Of a stretch of 35,090 nt of DNA, positions 6,408 to 20,609 are shown in pieces. The stretch spans positions 1 through 35,090 of the forward strand of contig NZ_KB905412.1 of NCBI RefSeq assembly GCF_000379465.1, in the 5' to 3' direction. The notes under the pieces were generated by a model. That model made no database searches. It was not told where the DNA came from and saw only the letters and a list, made by a program, of their open reading frames with translations. The position numbers and the translations under genes were made by a program. The first letter of the stretch is position 1. Every line of letters starts with the position of its first letter. The DNA comes from Sciscionella marina DSM 45152 (GTDB taxonomy: Bacteria; Actinomycetota; Actinomycetes; Mycobacteriales; Pseudonocardiaceae).

Positions 6408-6480
6408 CGCCCTCGGCAGGATTCGAACCTGCGACACCGGCTTTAGGAGAGCCGTGCTCTATCCCCTGAGCTACGAGGGC
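6408..6480 (-). tRNA. tRNA-Arg (anticodon CCU)
   Basis: On the minus strand the cloverleaf reads with a perfect 7-bp acceptor stem GCCCTCG/CGAGGGC, a D-arm GCTC..GAGC, an anticodon stem CGGCT/AGCCG around the loop CTCCTAA (anticodon CCT, reading AGG codons), and a T-arm with GTTCGAATC. The discriminator base is G and CCA is not encoded. Its 5' end overlaps the last codons of the WYL regulator, and its 3' end abuts the integrase remnant, making it the likely attachment site. Confidence 0.95.
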
Positions 6481-14109: not shown

Positions 14110-16518
14110 ATGCCGGTCATGCGTCACCCTCGCCGTGTGGTCCTTGCCGTCATCACCGTGCTCGCCGCGAGTCTGCTGCCCGTTTCGGCGGCCGCCGACG
14201 ATGAGACCGTGACGATTCCAGGGTTGTCCGCGCCGGTCGACATCACCGTGGACACCTGGGGTGTCCCACATATTTCGGCGCGGAACACCGGCGACCTGTT
14301 CCAGGCACAAGGGTTCAATGCCGCACAGGACCGGCTTTTCCAGATGGACACCTGGCGCCGCAAGGGGCTCGGCGAGCTGAGCACGGTGCTCGGACCGAAC
14401 TATGTCGAGCAGGACCGGGCGGCACGCTTGTTCCGCTACCGCGGTGATATGGCGAAGGAATGGGCGAGCTACGGTCCGGAGGCCAAGCGGATCGCGACGC
14501 GGTTCGCGGCGGGCGTCAACGCCTACGTCGACTGGCTTTCCGCGCACCCCGATGCGCTGCCGGACGAATTCCGCCAGCTCGGGTACTCCCCCGCGCACTG
14601 GCGACCGCAAGATCTGGTGCTCATCCGCACGCATGCCCTGGTCAACAACCTCACCGACGAGGTCGACCGGGCCAAGCTCGTATGCCTCGGCGGAAGACAG
14701 GCCAGCGAATACCACAAGAAACTCCAGCCCGACCACGAGCTCGCGGTGCCCGCCGGACTGGACCAGTGTTCGATCCCCGACGATGTGCTCGAGGTCTACG
14801 ATCTCGCCACCGCCTCGGTACGCTTCGACAAGGGCACCATGCGCTCCAGCAAGGAGCCGGCGAACCAGCGCCGGATCGACGAGGCGAACAGCGGCAGTAA
14901 TTCCTGGGCGATCGCACCGGAACGCACCGCTACCGGGCGCCCGATCCTCGCAGGCGATCCGCACCGCTTCAACGCCGAACTGCCCACCGACCGCTACATC
15001 GCGCACCTGTCCGCCCCCGGGCTGGACGTCATCGGTGCGGGCGAACCGTGGAACCCCGGAATCAGTATGGGGCACAACGAGAACATCGCCTTCGGCCTGA
15101 CCAACCTCGCCGCCGACCAGTCCGATCTCTACGTCTACGACCTCAAACCGGGTGATCCGAGCCGATACCGCTATCGCGGCGGCTGGGAGCGGATGCGCAC
15201 CACGACCGAACAGATCCCGGTCGCCGGTACCGACCCGGCGTCGGTAGGGCTCTCCTTCACCCGGCACGGACCGGTGGTCAAGGTGGACAAGAAGCACAAC
15301 AAGGCCTACGCGGTGCGCACGGTGTGGTCCGAACCGGGCACCTCGGCCTACCTCGGCAGCCTGAATTTCCAGCGAGCCAAGAACTACCCGGAATTCGCCT
15401 CGGCTATGCGCACCTGGAAAACCCCGGGCTCGAACCTGGTGTTCGCCGGCAAGGACGGCGATATCGGCTGGGTTCCCGGCGCGATCGTGCCCAAACGCAC
15501 CGGCTCCGACTATGACGGGCTGCTTCCCGTTCCGGGCGACGGTCGCTACGAATGGGACGGATTCCATACGAACGACGAACTGCCTCGCGTGCACAATCCG
15601 AAGGACGGCTTTTTCGCCTCGGCCAACGACTACAATTTCCCGGCGAGTACGCGGGTGCGGCCCGGCTATGAATGGTCGGCCGAATACCGCAAGGACCGCA
15701 TCACCGAAATGCTCGCCGGTAATTCCCGTTCCTCGGTCGCCGATTCCGCGCGATTGCAGAATGACGAGCGTTCCGGGCTCGCCCGCGTCCTCGTTCCCTA
15801 CCTCGCCGATATGCGGTCCAGCGATCCCGCCACCGCCAAGGCACTCGAACTGCTGCGCGACTTCGACGGGATGATCGGCAAGGACTCCGCACCGGCCGCG
15901 CTCTACGAAACCTGGCTGATGCGTTTCCTCTACCCGGGATGGGCGCACGCGATGGTGTCCACACCGGTCGCCGATGAACTCGTCAAACGCAATGCGTCAC
16001 CGGATTTCCGTGTCCTCACCGCCACACTCGCCGATCCGGACCGTTGGTTCGGTGAAAACGGCGCGGCCAAACGCGATGCGCTGCTGCTCGATACGCTCGG
16101 CCGCGCCTACCAGGACGTACAGGAGAAACTCGGCGCGGACCCCGCGAAGTGGCGCTGGGGTGCCATGCACCAGCAGCTGTTCCTCCATCCGCTCGGAGAG
16201 CCGAGCATCGGCCCCATCGAGCAGGGCGGTGACGCGCACACCGTCCGGGCCTCAGGCTACGACGTATCGGCCTTCCCGTACCTCCCGGTGGTCGGTCCCA
16301 CCTTCAAGATGGTTCAGGACGTGGGAGCCTGGGACAACTCGCGTGCGATCAACGCACCCGGCCAGTCCGGGGACCGCCGCAGCAAGCACTACAGCGATCT
16401 GGCGGACAGCTGGGCCGAAGGGAAGTACTTCCCGCTGCTCTACAGTAAGCAAGCGCTCGCCGGGCACGTCGACCAACGGATTCGGCTCACTCCGGAAGGC
16501 CGGCCAGCCGCGCGGTGA
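14110..16518 (+). CDS. Secreted penicillin acylase family (Ntn) hydrolase
   Basis: 802 residues. An N-terminal signal peptide ([20 protein letters not shown], cleavage near SAAAD) is followed by the α-chain region [11 protein letters not shown]. The self-processing site is predicted at Gly262-Ser263 in NSGSNSWAI; Ser263 would become the N-terminal nucleophile of the β-chain. Later [20 protein letters not shown] is also typical of the family. These enzymes cleave amides such as β-lactam side chains, acyl-homoserine lactones or cyclic lipopeptides; the substrate is not predictable here. ATG 14119 is an alternative start. The 3' end overlaps the convergent valS gene by 32 nt. Confidence 0.92.
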
Positions 16519-19111
16519 TCCGCTCGATGTCCGCAGCCGCGGCCTCGAGACGGGTGCGCACCTTGGCGACCACGTCCTCGGGGGCGTTCGCCACGAACTT
16601 CTCGTTGCCGAGCTTGGCCTCGCAGCCCTTGTGTTCTTTCTCCGCGACGGACAGGTCCTTCTCCAGTCGCTTGCGCTCCGCGGCCACGTCCACGGCACCG
16701 GACAGGTCGAGTTCCACACCCGCCACCGCGCCGGTGAGCCCGACCTCGAGCGCCGCGCTCGCAGAGAACTCCTGCCCCGGCTCGTTGAGCCGCACGAGGG
16801 TGCGCACCGCGGGCAGCAGTCCCTCGACACCCGCACTGTCCAAACCGGACAGTCGCGCGGCAACCCGCTGGCCGGGTTTGAGGCCCTGATCCGAGCGGAA
16901 CCGCCGGATCTCGGTCACCAGCTTCTTGAAGTCCTCGATGCGGGTGCGTGCCTGCTGGTCGACCGGCTGCTCGCGCACCGTCGGCCAGTCGGCGATCACC
17001 AGGGACTCGCCGCCGGTGAGCGCGGTCCAGAGGGTCTCGGTGAGGAACGGCATCACCGGATGCAGCAGCCGCAGCAGGGTGTCCAGGACCGAACCGAGCA
17101 CCGCGCGGGTATTCGCGGCCCGCGCCTCGTCCCCCGAGTTGAGCGAGACCTTGGCCAGCTCCACATACCAGTCGCAGAACTCGTCCCAGGCGAACCGGTA
17201 GAGCGCGTCACTGACCTTGGCGAACTCGTACTCGGCGTAGTTGGCGTCCACGCTCGCGACCAGTTCCCGGCAGGCGTCCAGGATCCAGCGGTCGGCATCG
17301 GTGAGCAGCGCGGTGTCGATCTCCGCCTGCGGATCGGCCCCGTTGAGCATGGCGAACCGGGTGGCGTTCCACAGTTTGGTGCCGAAGTTGCGGGAGGCGG
17401 CCACCCACTCCTCGGAAATGGGCACATCCACTCCGGGGTTCGCCCCGCGCAGATAGGTGAACCGCAGCGCGTCCGCACCGTACTCGTCGATCCAGGCCAG
17501 CGGGTCCACGACATTGCCCGCGCTCTTGGACATCTTCTTGCCGTTGCCGTCCCGCACCATCCCGTGGAAGGCGATCGCCCGGAACGGCGGCTGCTTCATC
17601 GCGTAGATGCCGAACATCATCATCCGGATGACCCAGAAGAACACCAGGTCGTAGCCGGTGACAAGGACCGAGGTCGGGTAGAACTTGCGCAGATCCGCGG
17701 TGTCCTGCGGCCAGCTGAGCGTGGAGAACGGCCACAGCCCCGAGGAGAACCAGGTATCGAGCACATCCTCGTCCTGCGCCCAGCCCGGCGGCGGCTGCTC
17801 CCCCGGGCCGAGGCAGACCTGTTCGGATCCGTCCGGGGAGTACCAGACGGGGATCCGGTGCCCCCACCACAGCTGGCGGGAGATGCACCAGTCGTGCATG
17901 TTGTCGACCCAGTCGAAGTAGCGCTTCTCCATCTCCGGCGGGTTGATCGCCACCTGCCCGGAGCGCACCGCGTCCCCCGCGGCTTTCGCCAGGGGCTCGA
18001 CCTTGACGAACCACTGCAGCGAGAGGCGCGGCTCGATCGGTTCCTTGGAGCGCTCCGAATGCCCGACCGAGTGCAGATAGGGGCGCTTCTCCGCGACGAT
18101 GCGGCCCTGTTCGCGCAGTTTCTCGCGCACCGCGAGGCGGGCCTCGAACCGGTCCATGCCGTCGAACTCGGTTCCGGTCTCGGCGATGTGCCCGGTCTCG
18201 TCCATGATCGTGCGCATCGGCAGCTCGTGGCGGCGGCCGATCTCGAAATCGTTCGGATCGTGCGCCGGGGTCACCTTCACCGCGCCGGTGCCGAACTCCG
18301 GGTCCACATGGGAGTCGGCCACGATCGGGATCCGCCGCCCGGTCAGCGGCAGCTCCACCTCGGTGCCCACCAGGTGCGCGTACCGCTCGTCGTCCGGGTG
18401 CACCGCGACCGCGGTGTCGCCGAGCATCGTCTCCACCCGCGTGGTCGCCACGACCACCGAGTTCTCTCCCTCGCCGTAGCGCATCGAGACGAGCTCGCCC
18501 TCGACCTCTTTGTATTCCACCTCCGCGTCGGACAGCACGCTGCGCAGCACCGGCGACCAGTTCACCATGCGCTCCGCGCGGTAGATGAGCCCGTCGTCGT
18601 GGAGCCGCTTGAACATCGTGGACACGGCATCGGAAAGGCCGTCGTCCATGGTGAACCGTTCCCGGCTCCAGTCCACGCCGTCCCCGAGGCGGCGCATCTG
18701 CGCGAGGATCTGGCCGCCGTAGTTGCGCTTCCATTCCCAGACGCGCTCCACGAACCGTTCCCGCCCCAGCTCCCGCCGCGAGGTGCCTTCCTCGACGAGC
18801 TGGCGTTCCACCAGCGCGTGCACCGCGATCGAGGCGTGATCCATCCCGGGCAGCCACAGCGCCGCCTTGCCGCGCATCCGCTCCCGCCTGGTGAGCACAT
18901 CCATCAGGGTGTGCTCGAACGCGTGCCCGATGTGCAGGTTCCCGGTCACGTTCGGCGGCGGGATCACGATGGTGAACGGCTCGGCGGGCGAATCGGCGGA
19001 AGGACTGAAGTACCCGCGCTCTACCCAGCGTTCGTACAGCTCCGCTTCTACCTCGCCCGGTTGCCAGGTCGATGGGAGGGTGCTGTGCCGAGTCGCTGGG
19101 TTCTCACTCAC
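16487..19111 (-). CDS. valS: Valyl-tRNA synthetase
   Basis: 874 residues, full length for bacterial ValRS. This class I enzyme charges tRNA-Val with valine and edits mischarged threonine. HIGH-type motif NLHIGHA (HIGH at 60-63), KMSKS at 526-530, the editing domain between, the anticodon-binding region, and a C-terminal coiled-coil arm rich in Lys/Glu (about 805-874) that is characteristic of ValRS. ATG 19111 is 13 nt after the stop of the dehalogenase-like gene, so valS is probably read from that gene's transcript as well as from any promoter inside it. No T-box leader is possible in so short a gap. The 3' end overlaps the penicillin acylase gene on the other strand. Confidence 0.98.
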
Positions 19112-19124
19112 GATGACAAGTTTG

Positions 19125-19976
19125 TCATGTGGCCCGGAGGAACCGAATCAGGTGGTCACCTACCTCGCGGGGCCGCTCCTCGGGCAGGAAGTGACCACAG
19201 TCCGCGATCGCCTGCCCGGTGACCCGATCCGCGTAATCGCGCCAGATCTCCAGCGGATCCAGCCGGTCGAGCAGGCCCGACTCGCCCCACAGCGCGAGGA
19301 CCGGCATGCTCAGCCGGTGGCCCGCTTCGGCGTCCGCCTCGTCGTGCTCGGCGTCGTCCGGGAACGAGGCCCGGTAGTCCTCGAAGCCAGCGCGCAGCGC
19401 CCCGGGTGCGGAGAAGGCACGCACATAGTGCTCGATCGCCGCCGGATCGAGCGCGTGCCGCTGGTGGGTCCAGCGCTCGAAGAAATAGCCGAGGTATCCG
19501 GCGACGTCCTGACCGGCGAGACGTTCGGGAAGGTCCGGCTGCAGGTGAAACAGCCAGTGCCAATAGCCGCGCGCGAGTCCGGTGTCCATCCGCCGCCACA
19601 CCTCCCTCGTCGGAATGATGTCCAGCACGGCGAGCCTGCGCACCTGGTCCGGCCGGTCCAGCGCCCACCGGTGCGCGACCCGGGCGCCGCGGTCGTGGCC
19701 GATGACATCCACCCGTTCGTGACCGAGGCTGCGCACCAGTTCCGCGATATCGGTGGCCATGGTCCGCTTGTCGTAGCCCGACGGCGGCTTGTCGGTGTGC
19801 CCGTAGCCGCGCAGATCGGGCGCGATCACCGTGTGCGTCTCGGAAAGCGGACCGAACAGCTCGCGCCAGCAGTAGGAGGTCTGCGGCCAGCCGTGCAGCA
19901 ACACGACCGCGGGACCGGACCCGCCGGAGCGGTAGTGCATCCGGATCCCGTTCACCGTGGCCGTCGCCGACTCCAT
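19125..19976 (-). CDS. Fluoroacetate/haloacetate dehalogenase-like α/β hydrolase
   Basis: 283 residues with the oxyanion motif HGWPQT and nucleophile motif GHDRGAR. Compared from memory with the Rhodopseudomonas palustris fluoroacetate dehalogenase, all functional positions are present: nucleophile Asp95, carboxylate-binding Arg96 and Arg99, Asp119 in AVLDIIP, fluoride-pocket His140-Trp141 and Tyr201 (FEDYR), Trp169, and catalytic His262 in GHFLPEE. Asp95-to-Asp119 (24) and Asp95-to-His140 (45) spacings match the family. Epoxide hydrolases lack the Arg pair. It likely hydrolyses a haloacetate-like acid; C-F cleavage is inference. It is divergent from a CGNR regulator and upstream of valS. Confidence 0.85.
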
Positions 19977-19990
19977 ACCCGTCTCCGTTC

Positions 19991-20047
19991 TAACTGGTTC
20001 AGATGGTTAGCACAGTATCCGAAGATTTTAACCCCATCCAGTGGTTA
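19991..20047. promoter_or_regulatory. Two TAAC-N11-GTTA operators between the dehalogenase-like and CGNR genes
   Basis: The 81-nt divergent spacer contains TAAC-N11-GTTA twice, at 19991-20009 and 20029-20047, with the same spacing and both followed by G. The second copy ends 10 nt before the CGNR start. They are probable binding sites of the CGNR protein and would control both directions. An AT-rich GAAGATTTTA lies between them. Confidence 0.6.
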
Positions 20048-20057
20048 GACTGATCCG

Positions 20058-20609
20058 ATGGAAGCGGACTGGTCCTTCGAGGGCGGGCGACCGTGCCTCG
20101 ATCTGGTCAACACCTTGCGTGATCGCCTCTTCGGCGGCCGTGAGCTGCTCACCGACACCGGCGCACTCGCCGACTGGCTGCTCGCCGCGGGCCTGCTCGG
20201 GAATCGGCCGCGGGTGCGCGCGGCGGAGCTGCTTGCCGCGCGGGAGCTGCGCGAGGCGATCGACCGACTGCTGACCACGCCCCGCCCCTCGAACGCGGAT
20301 ACGCGGCTGCTCAACGACACGGCGGCCGGAACCGAGCTCCTGCCACCGCGGCTGCACCGCCGCCCGGACGGCACGCTTCGGCGGGAAACCCCGCGCCCGC
20401 GCGAACCCGTGCGCACCGCGCTCGCCGCGGTGGCCGCCGATGCGATCGAACTGGCCACCAGCGAGATCCGGGTCCGGATATGCGCGGGTGAGGACTGCGC
20501 GCTGCGGTTCGTGGACAGCTCGCCGAAACGCAACCGGCAGTGGTGTTCGATGGCGCGCTGCGGGAACCGTGCGAAGGCCCGGGCGCATTACCAACGACAC
20601 AGGCAGTGA
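20058..20609 (+). CDS. CGNR zinc-finger transcriptional regulator (ABATE domain)
   Basis: 183 residues. The N-terminal ABATE domain opens with FEGGRPCLDLVNTL, and the C-terminal CGNR finger reads RICAGEDCALRFVDSS, then RQWCSMARCGNRAKARAHYQ, giving four zinc-binding cysteines and the basic DNA-contact helix. Such proteins are stress- or metabolite-responsive regulators in actinobacteria. Divergence from the dehalogenase-like gene and the paired operators point to control of that gene and of itself. The ligand would bind the ABATE domain and could be the halogenated acid; this is inference. The leader is very short, suggesting a nearly leaderless mRNA. Confidence 0.9.
   Translation: MEADWSFEGGRPCLDLVNTLRDRLFGGRELLTDTGALADWLLAAGLLGNRPRVRAAELLAARELREAIDRLLTTPRPSNADTRLLNDTAAGTELLPPRLHRRPDGTLRRETPRPREPVRTALAAVAADAIELATSEIRVRICAGEDCALRFVDSSPKRNRQWCSMARCGNRAKARAHYQRHRQ

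Follow-up and report, generated by a model that had tools for sequence, protein, structure and literature searches.

Does Sciscionella marina DSM 45152 possess a haloacid-converting enzyme that is controlled by a regulator of its own? The question was raised by the 35,090-nucleotide stretch of DNA analyzed here (the window), for which an earlier note, made from the sequence alone, had described a candidate defluorinase facing a CGNR-type regulator and co-transcribed with valS. Both open reading frames were found where the note had placed them (Table 1), separated by an intergenic gap of 81 bp that contains two 21-bp palindromes. The regulator gene is adjoined on its far side by fdhD. At the other end of the locus, the 3' ends of valS and of a convergent penicillin-amidase-type gene (14110-16518, PF01804) overlap by 32 bp (16487-16518).

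Table 1. Coordinates of the genes and putative operators at the locus (positions in the window).
Feature	Position	Strand	Length or sequence	Relation to neighbors or consensus	Basis
Alpha/beta hydrolase, fluoroacetate-dehalogenase type	19125..19976	-	283 aa		ORF list, residues, PDB and model matches
ABATE/CGNR zinc-finger regulator	20058..20609	+	183 aa	divergent from hydrolase	Pfam, cysteines
Putative operator 1	19990..20010	.	CTAACTGGTTCAGATGGTTAG	13 bp from hydrolase start codon	1 mismatch to CTAACC-N9-GGTTAG
Putative operator 2	20028..20048	.	TTAACCCCATCCAGTGGTTAG	9 bp from CGNR start codon	1 mismatch to CTAACC-N9-GGTTAG
valS	16487..19111	-		start 13 bp past hydrolase stop; positional neighbor only, no conserved partner	

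The locus was compared with 80 named loci (L016-L095), which represent the best 80 of 308 confirmed matches and in which closer relatives are over-represented. Together with the own genome and further relatives, these add up to 87 loci, of which 84 unique ones remained after three duplicates had been dropped. The closest named locus is L016 from Sciscionella sediminilitoris, which codes for a hydrolase with 94% identity.

Active-site residues, fold and relatives of the hydrolase

All nine residues that the earlier note had listed as important in fluoroacetate dehalogenases, namely Asp95, Arg96, Arg99, Asp119, His140, Trp141, Trp169, Tyr201 and His262, are present under these numbers and align with those of RPA1163 and Alr0039, as well as with those of FA1 for the aligned part shown. 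The nucleophile Asp95 as well as His262 and its acidic partner Asp119 match RPA1163 and Alr0039, and the halide pocket of His140, Trp141 and Tyr201 is complete in the alignment. The Arg pair of fluoroacetate dehalogenases binds the carboxylate of the substrate, and both Arg96 and Arg99 are present in 87 of 87 loci (including the best 80 of 308 matches). Altogether, this set shows no variation at eight of the nine positions, including Trp169 (87/87), although one of the search peptides used for finding relatives spans this residue. Trp141 is kept in 85 of the 87 loci (again including the best 80 of 308) and replaced by Met in L048 and L082. Met also occupies this column in L253, and these three enzymes are otherwise complete.

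Searching the PDB with phmmer returned Alr0039 as the top match (1.9e-72), followed by the enzyme of entry 9c9f and by RPA1163. Over the full length, scores of 247.6 bits were obtained for Alr0039, 231.3 for RPA1163, 208.5 for the epoxide hydrolase 7ac0 and 177.7 for FA1, and a search with the pocket segment only (residues 20-150) placed FA1, which has the same Tyr-Trp-His-Trp run, first and 7ac0 sixth. The AlphaFold model of the hydrolase (pLDDT 90.4) was matched to Alr0039 by Foldseek with a TM score of 0.95 at 44% identity. Among the matches listed, the 50 PDB chains were entries of Alr0039, dehalogenase D4B or RPA1163 (TM 0.90-0.96); they include three 6qh/6qi chains with titles that name no enzyme, which we presume to belong to these dehalogenases. 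The closest solved relatives of the hydrolase are fluoroacetate dehalogenases. In a hydrolase tree, which did not include FA1 and contained long outgroup branches, the query clade (33 rows, SH-aLRT 95) was recovered as the sister of the clade containing Alr0039, RPA1163 and 9c9f (27 rows, 90), and falls beside the proven dehalogenases rather than among them. Judged by its residues and fold, the enzyme is likely a haloacid dehalogenase, and a reading as a defluorinase is plausible. The review PMC11022551 counts Alr0039 (NOS0089) among the defluorinating enzymes, assigns roles to the pocket residues and describes the pocket Trp of FA1 as required for the cleavage of C-F bonds and dispensable for that of C-Cl bonds.

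Hydrolase-type homologues at E <= 1e-70 show a patchy distribution, being present in 7 of 41 genomes, the own one included. The tree does not keep genera together: Rhodococcus rhodnii groups with Kibdelosporangium (100), and one Streptomyces joins Sciscionella (91), which suggests that the gene has spread horizontally. Plasmid-borne homologues at E <= 1e-40 amounted to 375 records, all with less than 60% identity. The host itself contains a second, fluoroacetate-dehalogenase-like homologue (G000:C1:141394-142233; L002, L113) with 47% identity, in which the pocket His is replaced by Trp as in chain 4nvr, and which adjoins a gene of the isocitrate/isopropylmalate dehydrogenase type (PF00180).

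The regulator, its candidate operator and the conserved neighborhood

The regulator protein matched the Pfam families ABATE (PF07336; 1.8e-21, 77.6 bits at a cut-off of 24.4) and zf-CGNR (PF11706; 1.1e-18, 67.2 bits at a cut-off of 24), and its residues Cys142, Cys147, Cys163 and Cys168 together with Gly169-Asn170-Arg171 are identical in all 19 orthologues aligned. The sole structural match of its model at E <= 0.001 was Jann_2411 (3h0n; 8.2e-07, TM 0.55, rmsd 7.1). The claim that a CGNR/ABATE regulator faces the hydrolase across paired predicted operators was borne out by both Pfam domains and by the near-uniqueness of the two palindromes: across the 8.5-Mb host assembly, CTAACC-N9-GGTTAG with at most one mismatch occurs only at the two sites of Table 1. 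Sites with two mismatches were fewer than those of the reversed control pattern (scan totals per strand, 77 for the operator pattern vs. 144 for the control), giving no indication of a wider regulon in the host. As the host has no further site within one mismatch, the regulator is most likely local to this locus.

The same arrangement recurred in the orthologous loci. A divergent CGNR gene is present in 63 of the 84 unique loci (a set that includes the best 80 of 308 matches), and the palindrome cTAACC-N9-GGTTAg was found between the two genes with at most three mismatches in all 63, compared to none of the 21 loci lacking a divergent CGNR gene, where no site had fewer than four mismatches. 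Where a divergent CGNR gene exists, the search covered the intergenic region plus about 50 bp; for loci without it, 250 bp of upstream sequence plus 40 bp were searched. Within the 63 loci (drawn from the set with the best 80 of 308), the best site was perfect in 45 cases and carried one mismatch in 15, two in one and three in two; TAAC and GTTA are invariant (63/63), the center prefers T-n-A (51 and 55 of 63), and two sites are present in 32 loci and one in 31. About 3% of mononucleotide shuffles reached three or fewer mismatches. On the tree, regulator and operator changed state 13 times each, and all five independent pairs on starred branches were concordant (p = 0.0625). The CGNR protein would bind these palindromes and act as a repressor. 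The 21 loci counted as lacking a divergent CGNR gene include that of Pseudonocardia spinosispora (L042:4453-4992), where a distant CGNR gene lies in tandem directly upstream of the hydrolase gene and the palindrome is absent.

In the neighborhood at large, tblastn detected the CGNR gene in 59 of the 80 named loci (best 80 of 308). The neighbors of these loci were also grouped by means of a mechanical gene caller and BLAST at 1e-25 without family annotation, which recovered the CGNR gene in 55 loci. It formed the only neighbor group common to more than three genera and recurred in 14 (among the best 80 of 308), so the unit of CGNR gene and hydrolase gene also occurs outside this genome. A third conserved partner gene was not found in the same 80 loci, since the next neighbor groups span three genera. 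In a Nonomuraea locus (L070, 4342-4938), the divergent position opposite the hydrolase gene is taken by a gene for an HxlR-type regulator instead of the CGNR gene, a possible regulator swap; L076 is similar as judged by the start of the sequence. A fluoride riboswitch and crcB were rejected as companions of the module: the only Rfam match at gathering score in the window is a tRNA (6408-6480), and tblastn with the four CrcB proteins of the host, which recovered its control stretch, yielded no match in either the window or the named loci (the best 80 of 308). The four crcB matches of the host all lie on other contigs. None of the window proteins scanned resembles the partners in the fluoroacetate cluster described in PMC11812338.

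Inverted half-sites upstream of CGNR genes

The host gave nine matches to zf-CGNR, including a weak one, and similar inverted repeats were observed at three further CGNR genes. One of these faces an epoxide-hydrolase-type gene with an EHN domain across two AACC-N9-GGTT sites (L109:1878-3708), another faces a different alpha/beta hydrolase gene across two CTAACC-N18-GGTTA sites (L108:1740-1900), and the third faces a glyoxalase-like gene with CTAACC-N17-AGTTAG. For a family-wide sample, CGNR genes were collected from 21 genomes (own included) and from 60 genomes of the class. We took 144 of the CGNR loci listed, partly by score and partly by hand-picking, of which 142 were usable and 71 were kept at 50% identity. 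AACC-N9-GGTT was present in 6 of these 71 upstream regions, while the spacings 17, 18 and 19 were found in 3, 6 and 2 regions, respectively, whereas shuffling gave 0.18 on average for each spacing; the half-sites directly abutting each other (spacing 0, AACCGGTT) were found in 4 of the 71.

A half-site matrix, derived from the very 71 regions that it scored, let 30 of them pass a 2% null threshold. The final rescan yielded inverted TAACC half-sites in 31 of the 71 regions, with spacings of 9 (7 regions), 17 (7), 18 (9) and others (8), compared to none of 71 control stretches taken from within the CGNR genes and none of 70 taken farther upstream. The remaining 40 regions contained no passing site, and the grammar applies to the 31 others. 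In a held-out half of 36 regions, which is only partly independent because the sites had first been called with all data, 22 scored above the 97th percentile of the coding control, with spacings of 9 in five regions, 17-18 in eight and eight different spacings in the remaining nine. The spacing follows the CGNR phylogeny: its classes cluster on the CGNR tree with 3 changes among 27 rows, compared to a mean of 7.8 after shuffling, and none of 300 shuffles gave a value as low.

The partner genes of the operator-bearing loci were analyzed with Pfam. From 30 such loci, 28 divergent partners were obtained, one of them the window hydrolase, because no divergent gene was called in L128 and L242 was left out. 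Among them are six MFS transporters, six glyoxalase-like proteins, five alpha/beta hydrolases (this one included) and five EamA transporters, as would be expected if the regulators controlled detoxification and efflux locally. The palindrome is probably the DNA signal read by the window regulator and by many of its CGNR relatives. A published operator for the ABATE/CGNR family was not found in the open-licence literature searched, minor mentions lying outside that scope; the one dedicated study found on the family (PMC2954205) reports the structure of Jann_2411 and proposes a ligand-controlled DNA-binding dimer. As a tentative and still doubtful extension, ABATE/CGNR proteins may be widespread ligand-responsive local repressors with a TetR-like role, reading inverted (C/G)TAACC half-sites at spacings of 9 or about 17-18 bp. 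The ligand at the locus studied here would then be a small haloacid, and the locus a portable sensor for haloacids, possibly organofluorines, coupled to its own defluorinase.

The proposed module, its rivals and known systems

On balance, we favor the view that the locus codes for a small, self-regulated haloacid-dehalogenase module under local repression. The activity, substrate, DNA binding, repression and ligand that we infer for it would fit together as follows. A small 2-halo acid would be anchored through its carboxylate by Arg96 and Arg99, while Asp95 would displace the halide by an SN2 reaction and His140, Trp141 and Tyr201 would take up the leaving halide. His262, together with Asp119, would then activate water for hydrolyzing the resulting ester and setting free the 2-hydroxy acid. 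A dimer of the CGNR protein would occupy both 21-bp palindromes, thereby repressing the hydrolase gene and its own gene, until a ligand, either the substrate or the product, bound to the ABATE domain and caused its release. A promoter scan of the locus returned no promoter-like site, so the idea that the repressor would block a promoter is drawn from the position of the sites.

The same active site may, however, belong to an epoxide hydrolase resembling Cif or CorEH, in which Asp95 would attack the epoxide, His140 and Tyr201 would hold the ring oxygen and the regulator would sense an epoxide. HGWP at residues 28-31 fits the HGXP motif, and His140 and Tyr201 correspond to the His-Tyr pair, both of which mark Cif-like epoxide hydrolases according to PMC8244358. 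Moreover, Phe143-His144 is shared with the host homologues L003 and L004, unlike most rows of the dehalogenase clade, and the EHN-domain gene mentioned above shows another CGNR gene of the host facing a gene of the epoxide-hydrolase type. Because FA1 scored below 7ac0 over the full length, we lowered our confidence in the dehalogenase module and raised that in an epoxide hydrolase, although 7ac0 itself scored below RPA1163 and Alr0039. The invariant Arg pair argues in the other direction, as it is absent in 7ac0, which we take to be CorEH and which has Trp and Ser at these positions (compared over residues 68-144 of the chain), and in the host homologues L003, L004 and L008, which have Ile followed by Trp, Met or Ala. 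The residue after the nucleophile is Arg96 in the window hydrolase vs. Trp in 7ac0 and Ile in L003, whose best PDB matches are Cif-like, and we infer that a non-Arg residue at this position may mark the Cif-like/CorEH family. In addition, Trp141 and Trp169 are kept as described above, and the 50 structural matches listed include no epoxide hydrolase. Taken together, we regard an epoxide hydrolase as rather unlikely.

It is likewise unlikely, in our opinion, that the enzyme acts on another carboxylate, such as an ester, a lactone or a natural product of the neighbors, with dehalogenation at most as a side activity. The clade of the hydrolase is separate from the characterized enzymes, and no member with a measured activity was found in it; a weakly similar hydrolase acts as esterase, deformylase and defluorinase according to PMC13230308, but uses a Ser nucleophile. 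Furthermore, the genes opposite CGNR genes are varied, and therefore the partner gene says little about the ligand. These points are opposed by the full halide pocket, including the Trp that FA1 needs for C-F cleavage as far as described in PMC11022551, which is kept in 85 of 87 loci (including the best 80 of 308). The earlier note had also included valS in the unit, and co-transcription might couple detoxification to aminoacylation, e.g., against a halogenated valine analogue. Because the gap between the hydrolase stop and the valS start is only 13 bp and no terminator was called within it, co-transcription of the two genes, which lie on the same strand, is plausible, and the same neighbor is present in two Sciscionella genomes. 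Yet the only loci seen to be flanked by valS were L001, L009 and L016, all from Sciscionella, corresponding to one of the 80 named loci (best 80 of 308). It is absent from the other 79, with flanks of up to 5 kb on each side that are shorter for 10 loci at contig ends. Being confined to Sciscionella loci, valS was rejected as a functional partner; the place of the module upstream of it is most likely incidental, and we consider a functional tie very improbable.

If the favored reading as a self-regulated haloacid-dehalogenase module is true, the ABATE/CGNR family gains a concrete operator that can be tested by gel shift. The locus would then represent a regulated defluorinase-like module with a regulator neighbor recurring in 14 genera (among the best 80 of 308), and its regulator could be of use in biosensors if it responds to small haloacids. 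The orthologues with Met instead of Trp141 (L048, L082 and L253) offer natural tests of the role of the pocket Trp in C-F vs. C-Cl specificity. Of all these points, the operator deserves the most attention, both for the locus and for the family.

Compared to the known fluoroacetate dehalogenases Alr0039/NOS0089 (3qyj), RPA1163 (3r3u), FA1 (1y37) and D4B (9c9f), the window hydrolase shares the Asp nucleophile, the Arg pair, the His-Trp-Tyr pocket and the His-Asp pair, as well as the fold of the dehalogenase chains listed above, which do not include FA1. It differs by its position in a sister clade, by lacking a five-residue insertion near residue 65 and by HGWP and Phe143-His144, whereas the known enzymes have HGFP, HGYP or HGHP; no CGNR regulator is mentioned for them in the accessible parts of the sources. 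The fluoroacetate cluster of Caballeronia sp. S22 has a fluoroacetate-dehalogenase-type gene in common with the window. According to PMC11812338, it also codes for a fluoroacetyl-CoA thioesterase, for CrcB and for an aconitate methyltransferase, and no crcB was found here in the window or the flanks of the named loci (best 80 of 308). For Jann_2411 (3h0n), neither a DNA site nor a ligand is known from PMC2954205, whereas a site is proposed here for the window regulator. The two proteins have both Pfam domains and the zinc-knuckle cysteines in common. A further parallel is the CifR-cif system, CifR being a TetR-type protein. As reported, it resembles the proposed module in outline, with a local epoxide-responsive repressor, two sites and an alpha/beta hydrolase as the target, but differs in that this target is an epoxide hydrolase.
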